Below, one piece after another: positions 26,391 through 41,350 of a DNA stretch of 64,000 bases. The notes under the pieces are model-generated. The model worked only from the letters and a program-made list of their open reading frames with translations. It was not told the origin of the DNA and made no database searches. How positions within the stretch are numbered: position 1 is the first letter of the stretch; each line of letters begins with the position of its first letter. The stretch is from the NCBI GenBank assembly GCA_000310025.1, contig FN649750.1, forward strand, positions 2,702,538 through 2,766,537, written 5' to 3'. Both the position numbers and the translations under genes were made by a program. This stretch comes from Ectocarpus siliculosus (Eukaryota > Sar > Phaeophyceae > Ectocarpales > Ectocarpaceae).

Positions 26391-27243
26391 CTAACTCTCA
26401 TGTGGCCACCCGAGGTTAGCAACACCAGCAAGACCGCGCTCGAGGTCAGCGATTCTCTTCTCCATCTCCTCAACCCGCACTCGCAGCGCATTATTCTCCT
26501 CCGATAGCTGTATGAGATCCGAGACTGCCGGCTTCGAACCAAGCTGTCCGACATGGCCCTCTTCATGAAAAACAGCATCCAGCGACTTGTGGCGTTGTGG
26601 GCTAACGGCAGGGCGTCTGCCAACAATATCAGCACTGCTGCCACCGTACGCACTTCCACTAGCGGCCATGGCACTCGACAACCTCCCGGCAGCAACTTTC
26701 CTTGCAGATGCTTCGTAGGCCTCATCCGCAGTGATTGTGCTTGCCGGTAATGAGGTCGACGCAGGTGCTTCTTCGAGTCTGTCGAGACGGTCAAGCGCTG
26801 CGGACAACGCGGTGGCGAGCGTCGGTACCAGGCGGGAGTAAGCGACGGTTTTGTAACCGTTGCTGTCTTCGGCAACGACCTCCGGAGCCACCTGTTCAAC
26901 CTCCTGTGCGATAAAGCCGTGTTGGCGACGATCTCCGTGAGTCCTCGTCTGAGAGTTTCTGGCTTTCGATGCCAGCAAGGCCTCGGGTTTCAGTACATAC
27001 GTCACTGCCCTGTTGTTGAATATTGCCAAGATGGGGGGGGTTGAGCATGCACAGACGCGAAAACACACAAGTGGTGGGTCGGTGTCCGAGGTACAATCAG
27101 ATTTGCTCCCAGTTGACCCGCTGAAAAATGGACCCCGACCTGTCTCCAACTCCACTCGCGTAGTCTCACCGCAAACCCTTCATGACGGCCATCGCGTCCG
27201 AAGCCGAGATATCCTTGACCTCCATCTTCATCCGCGCATCGGA
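26391..27243 (-). other. Peptidase_S74 intramolecular chaperone domain
   Basis: Spans the last two exons (27456-27170 and 27009-26391). The TSDARMK motif is encoded near 27240 and is followed by EVKDISASDAMAVMKGLR, a splice in phase 2, then AVTYVLKPEALL, HGFIAQEVEQVAPEVV and NGYKTVAYSRLVPTLATA. The order matches the chaperone domain of phage endosialidase and fibre proteins and of animal MYRF. The tail (SEENNALRVRVEEMEKRI) is a heptad coiled coil, consistent with a trimer. Predicted cleavage before the Ser would release about 230 residues. Confidence 0.85.
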
Positions 27244-30200
27244 CGTATCCATATACGGCCCGCGGCCCATGACGGCACCTGAAACAGTAACCGAGCCCTC
27301 TATCATCACGTCCGAGGCCGTGCTAAGCACTCCGTCAACGCTAAGCCCCCCATCCCCGACCGATAGGGATGGGAGACCAGACACGCCGCCTCCCATTGTG
27401 AAGTTCAGACCGGGGGAGAGAAGTGCCTCGCCTCCAAAGTCAACGGTGCCGGTAACCTGAGCGACGGGGTGTTGGGATGGGTCAAGCGAACTATGGACAT
27501 TTCGTAGTATTTGGGGCCTAGGGGTCGGGGCCGAACTTGGGGCAACGATCACGGCGTTGGAGGCCACTGCAAACAATGGTGGAGTGCATACCACATGGTC
27601 GTCGATGGCGCTGCTTGCTCGAGGAAACCTCTCGTGAAAACACATGAGAATTCCCTACCTTGTGACCTGAAATCATTTCCGTGACGAAAACACCTCCCTC
27701 GTCGTTGAACTCCATTCCTTCGGCGGCCCTCAGCTCGCCTTCATCTCCAACTACAACCACAGCCTGCGCACCCTTCTTCTTCTTCTCCTCCTTCTTCTTC
27801 TTCAAAGTGCCAATTTTGACGCGCCCGTCAACATCAACGTCCCCCGCAATGGCACCTTCGAAGGTCGCGTTCTGCAAGCGGGCGTTCTTGACGCCGGTAC
27901 CTCGGGCATCCAACCCCGCCGACAGCCCAACCTCCCCGTCTATCGAAACGCCCCCAGCGATGAAAGTTTCTCCGTTGATCTCAACGTGCCCTTGGCATGT
28001 GAGCTGTTCGACGCTGGTCAGGTGGGCTATCGATGCCGATGAGGCCTTGATGCTTAGGTTGGCTGGGTCGGCTGGGGCCACGCTGCCGCCGTCGCTGACG
28101 ACTAGAATTTCGCCCAGAGGATGAGCGTTGCTGTGCTTGTCGAGTTTCAGGGTCCTGCGAATAGTGAGCTCCTAGGGTACGGTTGAAGGGAAACGCATAC
28201 CACGAAGAGATAGGGGAAAAGGGATGGAGGCGAAGTGGTCCAAACGCCAGAGGGAACGATTGGTGACTGCAACAGGGGGGGGGGGGAGAATACTGGAAGA
28301 GGATGGTCATGCGGCTGAACATTGGTTTCCTTCTATTGCTGTATTATCTGACCATGTTTACGATATATCTCCTTCACAGCCCATACCCATTCTGACGAGA
28401 CTTCAGATCGTCGAGCGCGCAAGTAGGATAGAGGGAAAGAGTCCCGTATAAAGTGGAAGCATTTCCGCGACATCACCAACTACAACTACATAATCAGAGC
28501 AGCAGCCCACGACAGTATCAGCATCGGAACGGCAACAACGACGGCTCACATCGACGTGCTCAAGGTCCGGAGTCTCATAGTCGAAGTTTAGCAGACGGTG
28601 GCCTCCCAGGTCCAAGTTTCCCTCTAGAGTCGTCGTGCCGCCGAGCCTGACATCTTGAAGAGCACCGTCTTGCCAGGCCAACCCTCCACCACCCGACGCC
28701 AGTCCCAAAGCCTTACCACTACTGCCGATACTGCCATCTGCGTCTTCGGAGGTCTGGGAAGAGAAAACAGCCAGATGACCTCTCGACACGGACGCTTGGA
28801 CGGACACCTTCAGGTTGCTGGCGTCGAGGCTGGAAATAGTTCCCCTGTGGTTTCGAATACGACGAAACGGCGGAGGGTCTTGTGTAGGGCGTGGTATTCT
28901 TGAGGTTTGTCTCGCGGATGCAGGGGATCGATGCATTCGTCATGTTGCCTGCGCATCCCTACAATATTTCCTCATCCCCACGGTGTTGCAGTGGCAGATG
29001 GGAGTAGCTCCAAACAGCCGAGTAAGGGATAACCCTGTGTAGGGAACAACGGCAGCGCTGACGAGTACAGTTCTCTCGTATATTGGAATCACCGCTGAAG
29101 GTCAGGGATGGAAAACAGGTCGTTTGCCCACCTCTCCATTCAGCAGTGTATGCATTTTGTATATCGCGGAAGACGCTTCGTTCCTGTGCATCGCTGACTA
29201 CATCCGGTGTTAAAATTTTGGCGATGATGTCAGGTACGTTAAATGAGAACTGAGGTAATTCTTCGAAAACCAAGGCCGAAGGACTCCCCGGGTCTTAGTG
29301 GGAAAGCAGCCGAGAATAATGCACGCCAATTGTGCCTGACTACATGCAGTCAACCTCTTGTTGCATGCATACCCTCTAGTCGTCACCCTCCACACAGAGG
29401 CTATAACGTCCATTCCGGGATCAGCAGGTCGGGCGGGCGCAGAAAAAATGATCCCGTGCCCGCTGCTGTTGTGCACCACCACTCTGTCTTCGCCCGCGAA
29501 ATGTGCATATTTTCCACCTTCGCAAAAAAACCATTTCGTCGCTCCGCGAACCCGCACCTTATCTCCGGGCTCTCGAGCACAGCATTCCGCATCGTGTTCC
29601 CTACCAAGTCCACGTCCCCCGTAACCTCGTGGGGGCCCAACCGAGGTGCCAGCAACGTTCCCGTCACCGGGTTGACGGAAAACGCCTCACCAGCCGACAG
29701 CAACTCTCCATCGCCCTTCAGAATCGCAATAGAACTCGGACCCACAGGGTTCGCTTGTTCGTTGCCGCTGGGATGGTTGTTGTCGGTGGTTTCTCCAGGG
29801 GGGGGGGCGCCGATGAACAGTCGACGGACTTCCAGATGGTGTAGGCCGGTGATGCTGGATACCCCGGAAAGTGAGATATTTCGAGCGGTGAAGCCCTGTT
29901 GAGCACGCGTTTGGTCGAAAGGTGGCAAAGACACAGGTGGAGGAGGAAGCAAGGTCAGCGCCACGACTCTGTAGGTTTAGGCTCTTGCAGCAGTTGGTAT
30001 GTCGTGGATGTTTTGTTTGTAGGGTGACAAGCAAACCAGCAAGGTGCACTGCCGGCGGTAGATTTTTTAGTGCGACAGATAGCCACGGATGGTTTGCCGA
30101 ACATGTACCAAACGCACTTCGAGCACACGCTTCAAAACCCACGTGATGAATACAGCACCCGAATTTGTTTTTGGCCGTTCAAGGCAGGTGCCGAAGGATT

Positions 30201-33200
30201 TTTTGGTACATCTTCTCAACGGGGTTTTCTCTACCCTTCACCCGAGATTCGTCAAGAACAGCGCTCAACCATAAGAATTCTTTGCCGGGGCTGAACTGTC
30301 AACTGGCATGAAAGGTCAAGCATATGGGAATCCCGACGCGAAGGAAGACATGGGGACTTCTTGGCGTCTACACGGCTTCCCGAGACAGAAACCTAGCATT
30401 TACAGCCTGTTTTTATCGGTCACTAGGAATTGACGGGAAGACAACGCGTAGGGCCATCTGGGGACAGCACATTAACCATTGGTTGCAAGACCCTCCTATG
30501 GCGCATGTAGCAAAGACATCATCCGACCGGGGGTGGAAAGCACATGTCATGTTTTGATTTCGGAACAACGAATTCTTCAACGCTGGGATTCTTGGTATAC
30601 CTGAAAATCGACATCTCCGTGCTGCAGGTGAGGCCCGAGGCCTCTTACGTCGACGACCCCCCCGGGAAAGACGGCTACTCCTTCCGCCCGGGACAGTTCC
30701 CCCTTCTTGTCGAACACGCCAAGCCCGTATTCCGCTCCCGATGGCTGCACCACCCCCGCGAGGGACCTCAGGGATTCTGATCCCACTTTTGACACCCCGC
30801 TTCCGCTGCCAGTGCCCGTTTCAAGCATGAGACGATTGGTCTATGTTCCAGACGCCAGTATCAGTGAATCGGACGGAGGGAGGAGCAGCAGGACAAGCTA
30901 AGCAAGGCGTCGAGTTGATTGTTTTGACACTCTTGTAGTGAGAACGTCTCCCGCTTAGACGGGACGGTAACCCTAGAAAGTGTGTTGAGCTTTTTTCCAT
31001 GAAGTTGAGGTTACGGTTGTTCAATTGTAAAGGGACAACAACAACCAAAACCGACACAACCGACCATTCTGGAGCAATGACATCCTTTGCAATGGGTCTG
31101 CGAAGGCACGCTCACACCCTGCCGGGCGGAAAGCTTCAGGTATTCACCGAAAAACAGCAAATAACAGACTCGCAGAAAGTAACACAAAGACCGAGTACGG
31201 CGGAAAACTACCATACCTTAAGGAATGGGATGCGGTCGATGGTGGCGTTTACGAGGGCGATGTTGCGAACCGGCTTACCCTTGAAGTCCATGCCTTCTGT
31301 AACCTAAAGGGACGGGAAGTGCACAACGACGCCGACTGAAGTTCACCACCTCTTGCAGTGGCGCGGTTAGTTGTTGGAGTTTGTTGCGCTGTGCTGCAAT
31401 TGGATTTCGTCGAAGGCCTAAGAACTTCAGGACGTAATATTCCACTATTTGCTGGATATATGTAACCAACAAACTCTAAGGTATTGCTACAGATACCCCA
31501 CTGCATCGGCCTTAGTTGTGGCCCTCGTCTCCTTTGCCTTTGAGACCTCGCCGGTGCCGGTGACAGGCGCAACAGCCGTGCAACGCTAATTTGAAGACAG
31601 CTTTGTGGGAGAAATAACACGCTCGTAAACTCAAAAGCGCTGTGGACTGCTTGCCTCGGAAGCCTGGAGCCGTGGTACTGTGAGCGTTCGAGTCTGGGCG
31701 TCCCACGAAAGCCCTTTGTCGGATGTCAGCAGCCCTCCACCACCGAACAAGGCCACCCCGCCGGCTTGGTTGGCGCTCGACACCAGATGCCTCGCTCTGC
31801 CGCCCAGAAGTTCCGTGTATTCATACCAAGCGTTCGACAAGAGTTGCGCGCGAGTGGGCATGACACCGCCTCAATATCGCTAGTTAGTACTATTGAGGCA
31901 TGTTGGACGGGCTGTGACGGGGTAATAACTGGCAAAGGCGTCCCACGCAACGATGGTGCAGCTCCAGCCGAAAGGAACATGTTTCCATGTCAAACAGCGC
32001 CATTTTTGTTTTTTTTTGTCTTCACTTCAAATCAGCGCTCACAGCACTAGTGCCGTTTACTCCAACCCGTGGTCACACAGAAGAGCCCCTCTCTACCCTC
32101 CCCTTCTGCGGTACTTTGCCTTCGATTTTTAATGCGAGAAGAGTTCAGCACTCTGTTCCCTCTGTGTACACACGAACTAGCGCTATCCACTAGGCCAGGA
32201 GCGGAAGCGAGAGAAAAACTCACTTTGCAAGAAAAGCTCGCTTACGCCGGGATTCGAACCCCTGACCTGACCTCTAGAAGCTTTCGAGGATACCAACTAG
32301 ACCACCGGGGCGACCCATTGGTGCGGTATATGTCGAGGTGCAGTTCGAGGGTTCTACGGGAAGGGCATGTGACGGAGCAGGAAACGCCTGTAGCCAACCG
32401 ACATGATCTCCAATGCACCCACTGATCGTTGGCTCTGGAACCCACATACCGAAACAATGATACATGAGCATGAAGAACACAGCGTCGGGCGCAGAGGTGC
32501 TCGAAGAGGCGAGGGATGTGGGGATACGCGGTAGTAAACTGTCTTTGGTCACAGACCTCCTGAGGCAGCCGGCCAAAATCTCGAGGAACTCTGCTCTTAC
32601 AAAAAGCTCTCAATGCGCAGCTTGCCGTATCGACAGCTCTCGTACACAAGAGTTCCAAGCGCAAAAATTGCAAGAAGCAACTCAAACAGTCGACAGAAAC
32701 ATGACCCACGTGAGGGAGAATTCGCCGATGTCAAGGTCTTCCGCAGCGGTGAAGGAGGAAACTCCACGAAGCTCTTTGACGTCGGCCTCTAGGACCCGGA
32801 CATCACGCCAAGAGGAGCCATCGTGAATAAACAGCACGGTGTATCTGCATCGCGGCAGAAGTCAACAAGTCCAGCATGAACAAATCGCGCGGAAAGATTG
32901 TGGAGGGGAGGGTAACGGAACGAAACGTTCCTGATAAAATGTAACACTGTACACATTCAGCAAAAATATGCCTTCCGTAAACGTAGCGGTTCGATGTATG
33001 CCGGTTCGATGTATGCCGACTTGCGGATATTGATCACAACAGATTCGCTGCTGGTGCACGTGATGGTCTCTCCTTCGCATCTACCTCAACAGTGCACCTT
33101 CCCGTCCATCCCGTTTTTTACCCCTTCCTAATCCCGTCCCGAACTGTCCTCCTTGCTGAAACCGTTTGTCGCTTACCCTGGAGGAATGATGGCATCTCCT

Positions 33201-36200
33201 GATGTGGGATCGGCGTCGCTGTTGCGGAGCACGAGAATCTGGCCGCCTGAAGCACCTCCCTGCCAGTCGAGCCGGGCCCCACGTATTGCAGGTTTGACAT
33301 ACAGCCAGCACAAGCGGACAAACGACGAGGAAGGCAATTTTCAACGACGAACACGAGCCCCGCCAACAACACAACGCAGTGTACGATAGGGTAGGCGCGA
33401 CCCACGCTTGTCGTTGAAGTTGTTCTTGGGGTAAAGCTTACAAGGCTATTGTTGTGTCGAGAGCAAGGAAACGAAAGAGCGGCGAGGTGGTGAAGGCACT
33501 GGTTGAGGGACTCAACGTTGGAGCTCGGGATATTCTGGGGTTTCTGTTGGGTTTCGTGTTGATCAGACTCGGAAATCCTTTTGCTTATGAGACAAGCCAG
33601 TCATCCAACAGGTACACTGACCTTTCTCGCGTTCTGCGGCATCGGTAGCACCCACTCGAAAAATATCATAAGGAAAGATGCAGCGCTGCATGACTTGCAA
33701 AATGCACCAAGTCTGGGTTGTGAAACGCCGAAAGTAGTAGCAGCAACCGTAAAACGCCAACATCGTCGTCGAACATCCTCGGGAGGAAAGCAACCTGAGC
33801 ATTAATATCCAGAAGGTCGCGCAATCGCACCTTGATCCGCAAAATGTTGGGAGAACCCGCCCGACCATCGTCAGGTACCTCAAAGAACGTCCCGAGGCTT
33901 GCGTCAACTTCCACACCACTACTCCCCTCATCTCCGCTCTCGGTACCATCTTCGTCGTCATCGCTGTTGGTTCTGGGAACACCATCCGTTTGTCGGACGG
34001 CTCGCCTTTGCTCCAGAATGGTGGTACCTCGAGACACAAGACCGCCCGTGGCGACAAGGTTGCCGGAAGAGCCCGTCTCTAGGCCTCCCGTGGCGGTGAC
34101 TCTACCGGTGCCATCGACAACGAAAACCTCTTCCCCCCTCTGTCGCTCGTTTGCCTGTTCCAGGTTGTTATCCTCGGTTTGTTCCCCCCCGCCGACTGTT
34201 GCCTACGCATTTGAGAGTTCGGTTAAACAGCATGAGAAAGGGGCTTGACATGAAATGGTTGGGGCATTCGCTGCTGTTGGCCATGGCAACCGTGTCTGGC
34301 GCGTGTTTGACCATGCCGGCTACAGGAAAATCAGCCTTTCCCTCCTTTATTTTGCCGTGTCACTGGTCGTTGCTGCCATGGTAGACTTGTCCTGACCTTC
34401 CAGCGCCCGCCACGAAAGGCTTCAGGTCAATGTTGTCGTGAGATGTCCCGGCAACTCTATCAGTGGTACCACAAACGCATCTCAAACATTACGCTTTAAG
34501 TGCTGTGAGAGCGTGACCCAAGTCCTCCTTGTCTCGTTGTTGTCCCGTTATAGTCGCCACGCTTGAGATTCGAGCACACCCGTGCGCGTGCACACACGAT
34601 GGGCGGCTACAGTAGTAGGTGAGGTGATTGGTTGGTTTGCCGAATGTTTTTTTTTACTTGGGCAGAACCACAGATAGATAGCCCCCCTCCAAATCTTACC
34701 TGCAAGAGTCGAAAGGAGGTAGAAGGGGACACCTCGGGAGCGGAGACGGACACGACGGCACCACCAAATCCTGCGTTCACGGCTGAGGCCGTTAAAGCGG
34801 GGGTGGAAGCATCGCTCGAGGCCGCGCGAATACCGCCGTGTGCAACCTTGATACGATGAACAAGGCGTGAGAAGGGTACCGATAACAAGTTTCGGAAGAT
34901 GATCATGAAGATACGGCACACATGCTAGAGGACCGATATCAGCAGTAGTTGACTGATGCCATTCATGCGACGAATGTGGCTGCCGTTGTGCCTGTGACAC
35001 CGAACTACCGCCACGACCACCAGTCATCCATACGGCTGGTACAAGATTCATGCACACAACGCCATCTCTGATGTTTCACGCCCCGCTTAACCACAAAAAC
35101 CAAGAGCAAGAACACCGTTTCGAGAATTCATGCTTCATCACACCTCGAATCCCCCACTGCGATCGCCACCGCCACCGCCGTCCTTGATAGAAAGGGTACC
35201 AGAGCGGAGAACGAGGCCACCGTCCACTGTGAGGCCGCCGGAGCTTATGGTAGCGCCGCCGCTACCCACTTTGAGCCCCCCGGCATCCACGTCTAGCCCT
35301 CCAGCTTTGATAGATGTCGCACCGGTGGCCTGTTGTACAATTTAAGAGTAAGCTTCCACATGGCGGGGATGGCTGCTGTCTACTGAAGTGTAGGTTCGAG
35401 GTCATTGTGAGCATGCAGGAGTAGGTTAGGCTAGGGGCGAGTAAAGGTGAGGTGTTGGATGCGTGAAGCTCCGGCGGTGATGATCTTTGATGTTGCCAAT
35501 AGCTATCTCTCTAGCTCTCTCCTTCTCCCCTCCCTGTACGCCCCCGCCTTTGCTGGAAGCGATATTGTACTAGTCTTCCTCCGTGGTAATGGAACGAACA
35601 CTGAGCTACATAGTTATGATGTGTGAGATTGACACTAACCACAACAACAACAACAACAATGGCAAAATTGACGAGGACGACCTTGTCTCACCTTGACCTC
35701 AAAAACATCTTGTCCAGCTGCCGATGCACGCAACAGAACTGCCCCCGCCGCTGCTGCCTTGGAGCCTCCTGCGTCGAGTCTCAGCACGTCTCCCGAAAAA
35801 TCTTGATTGCTCGCAGATATTGCTCCGACGGCACCGGCTAAGCTTGTGCGGTCTTGGGTTGTAGGCAGTCGGAAGGCGGGCACGGAATGGAGGTTATAGG
35901 ATGTGTCGATGAATCATTATGTCAAGGCCGGTGGACCTGGGACTGAGGATTAAGTGTGGCATATTCTGCCTCCTCTAGGGGCTGTGCTTTACGTAGGTTA
36001 TCATCCCCTGCCAGAGACTGGTTGCCATTTCTGTCACCACCCTCGTAATACATATGGCAGTTGCCAGGAACAGCGTGCGCGAGCTGCCGTCACAACCCAG
36101 GCCTCTCCTAACATTGATAGTTTATGGTAGATAGTTGTCATTATATTATTGCTGTGATGTTTTGCCTCCTGCGAAGTTCGCGACACGGTCAGCGATGCGT

Positions 36201-39200
36201 ACTGTAATTTAAATGATGTCGCACCTGCCGGCCCCGGTGTAGCAGATGATGTCGTGGAGACCTCGAGTCGACCATCTGTCACGCCCACGCTTCCACCGCT
36301 GGAAACAGAAATCCCCCCATCGCCGACGCCAAGGCCGCTCCCCACCAAGACATCCCCCTGAACAGTTCGGGGGCTTAACGTTAGTTGGTTTCTCCGTCGA
36401 CGTTAGGACGTTCCTCGAAATAAGCGACTTCTAGAATGCTTGCCTTTGGAGCCGAGGTCGGGGTTGAGCGATGTGCAACGCTCGAAGCGAAAGTACTAAG
36501 GTACCTGAGTTCATTCCGCTCAGACGATTTCGCAAAAGTATATCTAGCCGGACACCCGCACAGGGCCCCACACCCGCACCATCGATTTCCCGACAGTAGT
36601 GTACGCGAGGAAGATGCATGTCAACAAAAAGCACATACATTTTACGTATCTGCCACAGGAGCTGTGGTCGACGTCCGCCGACCTGGACCTGAGTGCGTGC
36701 AATGCCCAACGGCGAACGGCTCCAACGTTTTTTCTATGCCGATTTCATCAACAAGAAGAAAAGAAGATCACATTCTCGTACACGAACAGGTTGTTGTGGC
36801 TTGATTGCTTCGCACCTTGAACGTAGCACCACCCCCAGAAACCTCCAGGTCTCCCTCCTCGAGAAGGACACCACCTCCGCCGGTCATTAGCACCCTTCCG
36901 TCGCCGCCCACCGAAAGCAAAACCTGTTTCTGGCCGCCGCTGTTTTCTTCCTCGCTAGCACCCTCTCCTCCGACCGATAGCTCAAGGAGTCGGAAACTTT
37001 TCGCTCCCGTGCCTGATACAAGGTGAAGAGCAAGCGCGTTGTCACACTCACTATCGGTACCCCACGCGATGAAGTCAGCGTCAAAGTACAAGCTGTGATT
37101 CTGGGATCCGCAGGATCTACGAACAGTTCTTTTTTCTACCTTCGATGCCAATTGCCACGTAATCGGTGTTATCTGTCCATGATTTCGAGACACCAACGTA
37201 GGATAAGCGACGGGAGCTCTCAGCTCTTGTAGGAATTATGGCGATTCCTTCACGTCGCAGTGTGTTTCGCCTCAAAAAATTGCCGACACCGGTGAGAGGT
37301 CCAGCATACCGGATCCACCCATACCCGCCCCCCGCCTCTTTTCTTGATAGCTGCATACCGCCGCACCCGCTGCCCCTTCTTCAATCCTCACCCGGGCCCG
37401 ACTCCCGAACGTTCACCGCCAAGGCTGCTCCGGCGTACGAAAACGCCTGTTCCTCGTCCCGCCTGTCGGTACCGTTTCCGTGGAACGCCCCATTGCCCCC
37501 TTCTTCCTCTAGATCATCCCAATCAAAAGGACCGACTGAGACCAGAAGCCCAGGGGCGTTTTCACGAGTAGACAGGACCTCTGCCCCTCCGCCACGTACG
37601 TTGAGAGAACCACCCGAAACGGTCAAGGCCTTTGGCGGGCGTTTAGTGTTCCACTGGGGGTGCTCCTCGGCGGGGAAGGTTGTACCGGTCCCCGCGGGGT
37701 CATATCCCGGGTAGATTGACGCCGGGGGCTGAATGTGCAAAGAACCTTCGTGAAGGACTAGATCGCCCGCACCAGTAAGCGTCATGACCTTCGAATCGGA
37801 TAATGAGACGGTGAGTGCCAGGAATGGTCACCTTGCAGTCAACGATTGCGATGAAAGCACCAAACAAGTCCGACATCGGAAAGAGAGTACAACTACAGTA
37901 GGTCCGCCTCACCTAGGAAAAGAGAGTACAACTACCAATATACAGCAGATCCGCCTCAACTAGGGTCATTCCTCCTTCACCAAGGCATTTGTTGTCTGTG
38001 TCAGAGGTATTTAGATTTCTTAGTGGACCCTATAGGGCTGCGTACATCTGGTTCTGAACTTGACCATGCCGAGCATCAGGCCGGCCTCTGAAAACGAGCA
38101 CACCAAACAACTGTTGTCCAGACCAAAAGACCACCACATGTTTTTAAAAACAACGGCCCACGACCCTACGAATGTTGAAACAGAATTCGTGCCATCTAGC
38201 CGGCCTGGCCCAATCTCGGGGCCTTGCTCACGTCGTGTCGTCCAGCAATAGCCCTGACGAGGTCGTAGTCGGTGCTGAGCCCCCGGTTGGCCCTAAGCTT
38301 GAGAGTAGCTCCCGTAAAAAACGGGCCCTCCGCCAGGATTACCTGTGACATCCACGAACGGTAGCACACGGAGGCGACTTGGTCCGACGTGAGACGATTG
38401 GCCGTGACGTGTTGGATTGCTCTCCACTCCCCGGCGAGTGGCTCTGATACGCTACGTCGGTACCTTCTGCATGTCTCTGCTACGTCGGCTAGGAAAGTCT
38501 TATCACGTGGTATGTTCTCCCTCCTTCCAGTTCGATCGTCTAACATGCTTAGGTGCCAGACACCCCCGTGGTTTTTCGATACACGCCCATTAGCTGGTCG
38601 GGTGTTGAGAGGAGTTTCAGCGAGCGAGGTGTGCTGGCTAAAATAGCAAGGCATGAAAAGTCACCACAGCGAGATGGCTGGAAACAAAAGATCTAGACTC
38701 GTTCGTTCCCACCCAAAAGCCAATCGGATTGTCAGCACGCCGATCATTTCTTCCCCCCGTCTTCCGATTCATCAATAGTCGCACGGCGTCTTCGTTCACC
38801 GATAGTGTGGCATCTCTTACTGTACAGCTCCGGGACGAAATCACATCGAAGAGTTTTATTTCGATGCACCCCCTTTGCTTTCTCGCGAGAAGTTAAAGGT
38901 TCCTAGCAGAAGAATATTGACGAGCACGCGTATTTTTTTCGCCCCTTCATCGGGACGACAACCACATTCCTATCAAGACGTGTCTAGAGTCTTCCCGTTG
39001 TTTTCGACTGGGAACACCCGTCACACGCTACACACACCTGCGCGTCGTCCGAGTCAGAGATGTCGTCGCAGGCCTCTCCGCCGAAACCGAAAGTGCACTC
39101 ACAACGGCCCGTCTCTCTCACACACCTTCCGTGTCCTGAGCACTCCATGTACTCTGCGTGACGAGATAAGCTTGAGTTGTAAGAGGGGGGCGCAGCTGCA

Positions 39201-41350
39201 GGTACGCGGGGTTCGAAAACGATTTCTCGTTGGTATCGCTCGGCCGGTACAAACGACACTTATTGAACCTGAATCTCTTGGCGCGAAGCCCAGCTGGCTC
39301 GAAAACGGTAGAGTCCTACCGTTAGCAAATTGGCGTATCGTTCGTGCATAGCACTATTCTACGTAGTGCTAATACGTATTGGCGCTGTGTCGTTGACATT
39401 CGCTGTCCGTCACCTTTGACATTCTCGGTGACCATGTCGATGAGCTCGCACGAAGACGAAGCGGCGGAATCCGCTTCGCTCGATATATTGCACGAGAAAG
39501 CCTCCAAAGCAGGGTTTCCAGAGTGTCCGTAAAGGTTGTTTTCCCAGGGTGTGGTGGGAAACCTGTATATTCACCGAGGGAACGAGAAAGTTGGTGCCCT
39601 GGGACCATGACCAACGTCTCACCAGGGTTTCCGGGCTTCAATTTAACGCTCTTCGTAGATTACCTCGCCATTGCCTTGTCTATCAGGGCAAGACAGGCCG
39701 ACATTCTTTACGATGTTGAGATCTATTCCAGGGGCAGAAAGCACCCCAAGGTCTTCTCCGTGTCTCCGAAAGCAACGCATGCATTGATTCGCGTACCTTC
39801 GCTAGCAATGGGCGTTTCGTGTTATGATTTGTCTCAATTGCCTACGCTGCGACCACTGCACTCATATCAATCTCTCTGGGTGGTAAATGTTGTGGAGCTC
39901 GTACTCGTCTGAACAGTAGTGTCTTCTGCGACAACATTCCAGGAGCGGAAGCTGCGGAAACGAGGACGACGAAAACAACAACAACTCCGGGATAGCACCG
40001 TTCGGCTACGTTACACAACCCTACAGTTCACCTCAGGAGTGATATGACATAGTCTGTACCGCCGAACTCGCTGACGGCGCCTCTTTGACACCCTACGCGG
40101 TCGATGTTTGGCAGCATCTGGAGAGCAGCGGCACACTCCAGGTCCCCTGTCTGACGCGCGTCGGCGTTTAGAGTCGTTGACTCTCCGTTGAACGTGACCG
40201 TCAGCTCGCCGCTGATGGGGCCTTCTTCCGCCGTCGTGCGTAGAAGAAGGACCCTATCGGCCTGGTCGGTGGTGAGAGGATCGTCGCCCTTAGGGCACAA
40301 CCCTGAAGACGTGGAATACGACAGAAATATGTCGAGTTAGAGCTCGAGCATCGACCGATGAAACGAGTTATTGCGAAGGGGGTACCCGGGTAGAGTGGAG
40401 GAAGAAGAGGATATGAATGTTCTGAGTTTGTCTCCCATCGTGTTGTTATTGCTGTCGAACCTTCGTTGTAAGATAATGAAATAAATGCAAAACGCGCCAT
40501 GCTCTGCGAAAGGATACGATGTGCATCACGTAGGACGAAGATTCTGTTTGTGGCAGAGTATCAGGACCAGCCTTGGGTGTGACGCTGTTCGTAAGTCTAC
40601 TGTGCTGTAGAGAGCAGCCTACACATTGACCACACTACACTGTACATAAACTTACGCGATACATTGTAGTCCGTCCTCTCCCAAGGACGGGTTGATACCT
40701 GTAACTAAGCCTCCTGAGCAGAAACTTCAGCGGGGTGCGGACATGTTCACACGCCAAGACGCATTCCCATTGGAATAGTTCTCGCGAGTGCAATACAGTC
40801 AGTTGCAGCACAATATATTGTAGACGACCTCCTCACACATCGTAGACCTAGGGACTGCTGTAGACGACAACACTACTATGCACGGAGCGTGACAGTGCTC
40901 TTCACTACCCTACACTACTTACATGACGAACTTCTCTGTAGTAAAGGGGGTCAAAGGTAGCTGTTGCGGTACCCCGAGAGAGTACAAGTAGAGTTAGTAC
41001 AGGGGGGCATGTGTAAATCTTACTGAGAAAATCTACCGTGCGCATCCAACACAGATCGCGCCGCACCGAATCAAATGTACAGATGTACAGATGTTCAGCA
41101 GTACCACATTCGCATCTTAGCCAAACTCACGCGTTCCACAATCGTCGCCCTGGAAGCCCATCTCGCATATACAGAAGGCATCGTCGCCAGGCCCGGTGCA
41201 GATGCCGTGCTGGCTGCACCAGTTTGGACACTTGGCCAGGTAGACAGGGACAAACACGAGGATCAGGAACAAGCCATATCCAATCTGCTGCAGCGCAACA
41301 GCACGCACGATCCGCCCGAACGTGACGTTCGGTGGCCGGGGTACCACCAT
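26391..41350 (-). CDS. EGF / tail-fibre-like surface protein with Peptidase_S74 chaperone domain
   Basis: Predicted secreted or membrane-anchored fibrous protein of ~1,719 residues in 22 exons: 41350-41131, 40302-40032, 39170-39038, 38342-38232, 37788-37392, 37350-37290 (uncertain), 37092-36816, 36357-36225, 35852-35692, 35329-35144, 34846-34700, 34154-33831, 33259-33177, 32844-32710, 31796-31655, 31303-31217, 30840-30601, 29895-29558, 28844-28550, 28171-27659, 27456-27170, 27009-26391. All phases join. The ATG at 41350 has A at -3 and G at +4, with an in-frame stop upstream. Residues ~22-37 are a hydrophobic signal or anchor. EGF-like modules follow at ~41-72 (CSQHGICTGPGDDAFCICEM) and ~175-195 (CSGHGRCVRETGRCEC), around a beta domain starting RLCPKGDDPLTTDQ. 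Next come ~1,200 residues of Gly-rich beta repeats. The C-terminus is a Peptidase_S74 domain: SDARMK (dyad Ser ~1490, Lys ~1495), HGFIAQEVEQVAPEVV, then a coiled coil. In this family the domain trimerises the fibre and cuts itself off at the serine. Confidence 0.85.
32018..32311 (-). mobile_element. tRNA-derived SINE, copy 2
   Basis: Same element and orientation as 17578-17874, inside the intron between exons 14 and 15 of the S74 gene and in the gene's sense direction. The B box here is perfect (GGTTCGAATCC). The 3' end carries an A-rich tail, seen as T-rich 32004-32017 on the plus strand. No clear target-site duplication. Confidence 0.88.

Follow-up and report, generated by a model that had tools for sequence, protein, structure and literature searches.

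What kind of protein does a brown alga make from a gene that joins EGF-like modules to a Peptidase_S74 domain? The S74 (ICA) domain, which serves phages as a chaperone in the assembly of trimeric tail fibres, is already known to be common to phage fibres and the eukaryotic transcription factor MYRF. We analysed such a gene in a 64,000-nucleotide stretch of the Ectocarpus siliculosus genome (contig FN649750.1, positions 2,702,538 to 2,766,537, assembly GCA_000310025.1; hereafter the window, in whose numbering the positions are given). With a probability of about 0.66, we read its product as a predicted secreted protein with a 16-cysteine EGF head and a shaft of about 1,200 residues, which would trimerise through the S74 domain, would likely cut that domain off and would form a three-stranded extracellular fibre. 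Papers given by PMC number are cited from excerpts of their text.

Domain architecture of the predicted protein

The gene lies on the minus strand (41350..26391) and, in the homology-checked model, has 22 exons encoding 1,732 residues with a single stop, at the end. A first model of 21 exons was joined by hand from the minus-strand open frames between 41350 and 26391, and alignment with three relatives added one overlooked exon (32710-32844) and moved two acceptors. The exon number of 22 and both end coordinates claimed in the initial annotation were right, since the corrected model reproduces them. Twenty of the 21 introns are GT-AG and one is GC-AG (donor after 31655), and every phase fits. 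The Pfam search used the 21-exon model, with which the relatives were also found.

In that search, Peptidase_S74 (PF13884) matched with E = 1.5e-11 (44.9 bits, cut-off 22, profile positions 1-57 of 58). The match is spread over the last two exons, where the domain had been claimed to lie: profile positions 25-57 fall at 26874-27008, and the domain starts in 27170-27456. The S, D, R and K of the motif SDxRxK are invariant in all 11 aligned S74 domains and present in nine of nine family rows. They correspond to S1503, D1504, R1506 and K1508 of the window protein, with the Ser and the Lys five residues apart. When solved structures were searched with the single sequence, MYRF came first (E = 0.0016) and nothing else fell below 0.1, and the profile search returned the MYRF ICA (2.7e-16), the long tail fibre distal subunit 6f45 (1.3e-14), the putative tail fibre 8jov (2.1e-12) and the neck appendage 3gud (1.2e-7). 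Tail-fibre families of PHROGs matched the four proteins scanned (P0001, P0004, P0005 and P0007 in our numbering of the protein records; best value 5.9e-14, for P0001), one match in P0004 spanning 1137-1905 and hence the shaft too, and NCBIfam gave no match in any of three proteins. Following the S74 domain, a 28-residue segment within 1697-1729 has L, I, V or M at seven of eight a/d positions, consistent with the C-terminal coiled coil that had been proposed.

At the other end of the chain, residues 1-39 are hydrophobic on the Kyte-Doolittle scale (peak 1.99) and end just before the first cysteine, and from residue 81 onwards every 19-residue mean is 1.29 or lower. A cleaved signal peptide is a likelier reading of this segment than an anchor, since the signal-like leaders of five relatives (P0003, P0004, P0016, P0017 and P0018) stop just ahead of the same first EGF cysteines. 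Both the hydrophobic segment and the EGF-like modules of the initial annotation were found, the latter above the Pfam cut-offs (EGF_2, E = 1.1e-6, 29.3 bits, cut-off 22.1; EGF_Teneurin, 28.3 bits, cut-off 24.3). The head consists of two EGF modules flanking a domain with invariant CPK, NN, H and GNP and further cysteines (nine of nine rows). The chain has 17 cysteines, 16 of them in residues 41-242, where they would be expected to form disulfides, and the same 16-cysteine series occurs in P0001-P0004 and P0016-P0018.

Head and S74 domain are connected by a shaft of 1,195 residues (291-1485) with 17% glycine and one cysteine. The motif GG-h-x-h (h, hydrophobic) occurs 14 times in it, against 2.6 +/- 1.6 (maximum 9) in 1,000 shuffled sequences. 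The middle of the shaft (exons 13-15) contains a conserved module.

Relatives sharing the architecture

The order EGF, shaft, S74 is also found in two Ectocarpus records, in Tribonema minus (Xanthophyceae) and in environmental records. Ectocarpus supplies the two nearest named relatives, with 94% and 90% identity to the 21-exon model, and P0001 (Ectocarpus sp. 12) has 86-100% of aligned residues identical in each of ten regions. Against Tribonema, the aligned residues kept amount to 76% in the first EGF module, 62% in the second, 51% in the mid-shaft module, 41% in S74, and 38% and 31% in two parts of the shaft. A search with the whole chain gave 10 proteins, of which seven have both EGF and S74 (P0001-P0004, P0007 and P0008 from precomputed annotation, P0005 by our own scan). 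A query with the head only, which admitted proteins of about 950-3,020 residues and so excluded short EGF proteins, gave six proteins at E <= 1e-6, Tribonema minus among them, and all six have PF13884 and PF07974; three of them were already in the whole-chain set. A protein search with the S74 part gave seven proteins, four of them new.

P0004, labelled a complete open reading frame (ORF), comes from one MMETSP transcript and shows EGF and S74 in a single RNA of another microbial eukaryote. The joining of the EGF exons to the S74 exons, as claimed at the outset, thus recurs in independent protein records as well as in this ORF.

Two of the relatives, P0007 and P0008 (ENA), share with the window protein the EGF head with CPK and ENN-H-GNP, the Gly-rich shaft and S74. 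They differ in having more EGF modules and a stronger 7-residue repeat (Gly z 9.9 in P0007 and 8.6 in P0008), and the shafts are only weakly alike. The S74-bearing tail fibres and endosialidases of phages (6f45, 8jov, 3gud, 3gw6; PHROGs) are similar in the long repetitive chain, the terminal S74 and the catalytic pair, whereas the window gene is intron-rich and eukaryotic and encodes EGF modules and a predicted signal peptide.

Proposed maturation of the putative fibre

The steps proposed here are all modelled on MYRF and phage endosialidase. In MYRF, S587 and K592, which are equivalent to S911 and K916 of endoNF, are required for self-cleavage (PMC8326128); the cut requires that the ICA be trimeric, and trimerisation is driven by a triple coiled coil at the C-terminus (PMC8326128, PMC3742443). 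In the window protein, the signal peptide would route the chain into the secretory pathway, where three chains would come together by their C-terminal helices and S74 domains and register their shafts. Correct trimerisation would position Ser1503 and Lys1508, the cut would fall before Ser1503, and the 230 residues that make up S74 and the coil would be shed. The shafts would wind up, and the exported fibre would comprise residues ~40-1502, its three EGF heads standing together at one end. Removal of the S74 part by self-cleavage, which was absent from the initial annotation, is likely on this comparison. As for the displayed trimeric fibre that was claimed there, the identity of the S74 domain and its catalytic pair held, while the trimer, the fibre and its display outside the cell keep the status of predictions.

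Several observations weigh against the fibre. The architecture is known from a genome model and protein records, and its transcript support is the ORF of another microbial eukaryote. The period of 7 in the shaft is modest (at lag 7, z 3.9 for Gly and 2.2 for hydrophobic residues), and it is weak in P0004 (<= 2.0). A triple beta-helix is for this reason only a prediction; of the approximately 1,200 residues of Gly-rich beta repeats in the initial annotation, the length, the glycine richness and the excess of GG-h-x-h stood. Neither the mid-shaft module nor the head domain has a credible relative among solved structures. The head also occurs apart from S74, as P0006 and P0010 have EGF families and no S74 (P0009 has neither listed). 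The Ectocarpus N-terminus is longer than signal peptides usually are and might serve as an anchor, and P0008, possibly an incomplete model, has no hydrophobic N-terminus. S74 domains may also trimerise without cutting. Finally, SDxRxK is not universal in S74 at large, since seven of 20 viral and bacterial loci lack the full motif, several of them keeping S and K but not R.

Gene structure and related loci

The coordinates of the exons and of the predicted catalytic motif are summarized in Table 1.

Table 1. Exons and motifs of the predicted fibre gene in the window
Feature	Position	Strand	Basis
Whole gene; start ATG at 41350, stop ends at 26391	26391..41350	-	model, relatives
Exon 1: first EGF module, preceded by hydrophobic N-terminus (residues 1-39, predicted signal peptide)	41131..41350	-	model, Pfam EGF families
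Exon 2: CPKGDDP domain, flanked by the two EGF modules	40032..40302	-	model, alignment
Exon 3: part of head domain with ENN-H-GNP motif	39414..39562	-	model, alignment
Exon 4: second EGF module (Pfam EGF_2, 217-242)	39038..39153	-	Pfam, model
Exon 5: head-to-shaft linker	38232..38342	-	model, relatives
Exon 6: shaft	37392..37788	-	model, composition analysis
Exon 7: shaft	36816..37012	-	model
Exon 8: shaft	36225..36357	-	model
Exon 9: shaft; acceptor set by relatives	35692..35852	-	alignment, model
Exon 10: shaft, GG-h-x-h heptads	35144..35329	-	model, motif count
Exon 11: shaft	34700..34846	-	model
Exon 12: shaft	33831..34202	-	model
Exon 13: conserved mid-shaft module, first part	33177..33259	-	model, relatives
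Exon 14: conserved mid-shaft module, YTVLFIHDGSSWRDV; identified by alignment with relatives	32710..32844	-	alignment, model
Exon 15: mid-shaft module; GC donor	31655..31796	-	model
Exon 16: shaft; acceptor set by relatives	31217..31303	-	alignment, model
Exon 17: shaft	30601..30840	-	model
Exon 18: shaft	29558..29895	-	model
Exon 19: shaft	28550..28844	-	model
Exon 20: shaft	27659..28171	-	model
Exon 21: last part of shaft, beginning of S74	27170..27456	-	Pfam, model, alignment
SDARMK: predicted catalytic Ser1503 and Lys1508, Arg1506 between	27226..27243	-	alignment; dyad in MYRF/endoNF (PMC8326128)
Exon 22: remainder of S74 (to 26874), low-complexity stretch, C-terminal heptad helix	26391..27009	-	profile match, Pfam, model

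Intron 14 contains an interspersed repeat (32030-32330, minus strand), for which 39 other copies at 97-98% identity were seen among the 40 scored of 1,652 genome candidates. The repeat is probably a short interspersed element; it includes a stretch that we take to be like a tRNA B-box, and ARAGORN detects no tRNA in it.

Elsewhere in the same genome, the region C185:13574-22830 (minus strand) has an EGF exon followed on the same strand by a 1,831-residue repeat frame (its basic unit being 117 bp, or 39 residues) and then S74, and is likely a second fibre gene with EGF and S74. Upstream of it the assembly has a gap, and similar S74 exons occur at C185:6294+, in the other orientation, and at C3:2070734-. 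An intron position in common with the C185/C3 paralogue was considered and rejected: the introns are near each other in S74, but differ in place and phase. At C26:1750380-1763000+, an uninterrupted frame of more than 4,200 residues (4,416 in one count) with Gly/Ser-rich repeats holds two S74 domains that look identical. Another eukaryotic protein, P0013 (eukprot transcript, 2,852 residues), has S74 at the end of a very long shaft of Ser/Thr-rich repeats, with no EGF family listed among its domains. EGF-CPKGDDP modules related to the head lie at C455:340417-341009, C11:418561-422567 and C11:4613985-4617593, with no S74 match at those places; these loci are candidates for mastigoneme-like or other surface proteins.

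Alternative explanations

The same fibre might be placed on the flagellum, as a subunit of the mastigonemes, the tubular hairs that mark stramenopiles, which is a fair rival even though we regard it as unlikely. Mastigonemes carry Sig proteins, and male gametes of Ectocarpus have a high level of Sig1 (PMC3879662). Mastigoneme proteins of Phytophthora have a signal peptide and EGF modules and no membrane spans (PMC12223298), and the window protein resembles Sig1, Ocm1 and PnMas in its predicted signal peptide, its EGF modules and the absence of a membrane span (PMC12223298), there being no strongly hydrophobic stretch besides the signal-like N-terminus; the named relatives are also stramenopiles. 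However, EGF modules are widespread, the likeness to Sig1, Ocm1 and PnMas is drawn from their descriptions and not from their sequences, and the excerpts describing the three mention neither S74 nor a fibre shaft. The candidate roles of the protein are a wall or matrix fibre, adhesion, or a flagellar hair, and our results do not favour adhesion or mating recognition, the roles suggested initially, over a matrix or flagellar-hair role.

It is improbable that S74 is inactive as a trimeriser and cutter and that the shaft is a single-chain beta-solenoid as in bacterial adhesins. Gly-rich repeats resemble autotransporter passengers, and a weak Pertactin match was obtained (E = 0.09, 13.2 bits, below the cut-off of 22). 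The catalytic S, R and K are, however, kept in all aligned rows, S74 is conserved better than the shaft in the comparison with Tribonema, and a heptad helix follows S74, all of which speaks against this reading.

A MYRF-like protein, with the N-terminus as a signal anchor and with a signal, either the long part or the S74 part, freed by self-cleavage in place of a structural fibre, is very doubtful. MYRF is the best solved relative of S74, with which the window protein shares S74/ICA by sequence, Ser-x-x-Arg-x-Lys at the same spacing, a C-terminal heptad helix and its occurrence in a eukaryote (PMC8326128), and the hydrophobic peak of 1.99 comes with a long leader in Ectocarpus. On the other hand, the window protein is EGF-headed and likely secreted and has a shaft of ~1,200 residues; the leader of the relatives ends right before the first EGF cysteine, and EGF modules with 16 cysteines suggest an extracellular place. 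No Ndt80-type or other DNA-binding family is among the seven Pfam families at E <= 1, on which ground a MYRF orthologue was rejected.

That the gene model runs together a neighbouring EGF protein gene and an S74 fibre gene is highly improbable. The model was indeed assembled by hand from one genome without transcripts, but the same join is present in six further protein records (P0001, P0002, P0003, P0016, P0017 and P0018) and inside the transcript ORF P0004, which is labelled complete, and all phases fit; the two-gene chimera was rejected on these records and this transcript.

Origin of the gene

The idea of a recent viral insertion carrying a tail-fibre gene draws on the S74 domains in viral contigs and on the phage tail-fibre families, and is scarcely credible; we rejected it on the 21 introns, the same architecture in another class and the empty scan of viral contigs for the head. 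In that scan, which reaches close relatives only, no head was found, and no relative was among the four pattern matches. Phage fibres are virus-encoded and carried on the virion, whereas this gene, with its introns, lies on a eukaryotic contig and has no viral copy of its head by the same scan.

Relatives of the S74 domain itself are found in viral contigs (10 loci, 33-44% identical, with the P0004 domain as the query) and in bacteria (at least 15, 26-39% identical among the matches listed, with the window domain as the query), and the window domain gave no tblastn match at 1e-3 in 50,697 phage records. S74 has been named for viral proteins in a study of green-algal viruses (PMC12906663) and for bacterial injection systems (PMC8213781). 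For a tree of this short domain, 25 viral and bacterial loci were fetched and 20 entered, of which seven were dropped for incomplete SDxRxK and 13 were used. The window sequence, P0001-P0003 and P0016-P0018 form a group of seven rows with support of 82/84, which is below the star level of the tool. The deeper order is not resolved, and the 11 rows labelled 'alga' do not form one group (three changes); the label is our own, as the organisms of P0003-P0005, P0007, P0008, P0017 and P0018 are unnamed at source.

The view of an old, intron-rich eukaryotic gene, given in the initial annotation, agrees with the architecture shared by the xanthophyte and with the scan for the head. The results fit an old acquisition of the domain followed by vertical descent in the PX clade.

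Conclusions

The literature search, outside which most subscription papers lay, found no paper on S74 fibres in brown algae or on this gene family. In this gene S74 ends a long fibre-like chain, as in phages, on a predicted secreted, EGF-headed protein of Ectocarpus and a xanthophyte. If the trimer and the cut are true, a multicellular alga would have an autoproteolytic folding sensor at work in its secretory pathway, and the architecture of the brown-algal surface, matrix or flagellar hair would gain a concrete component. More tentatively, photosynthetic stramenopiles might own a class of extracellular phage-type trimeric fibres, with EGF heads on a self-maturing S74 shaft, which would be folded and proof-cut in the secretory pathway and would serve as structural or recognition fibres of the cell surface or flagellar hairs. 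Should such a class exist, the assembly trick of phage tail fibres would be a standing part of a eukaryotic secretory pathway.

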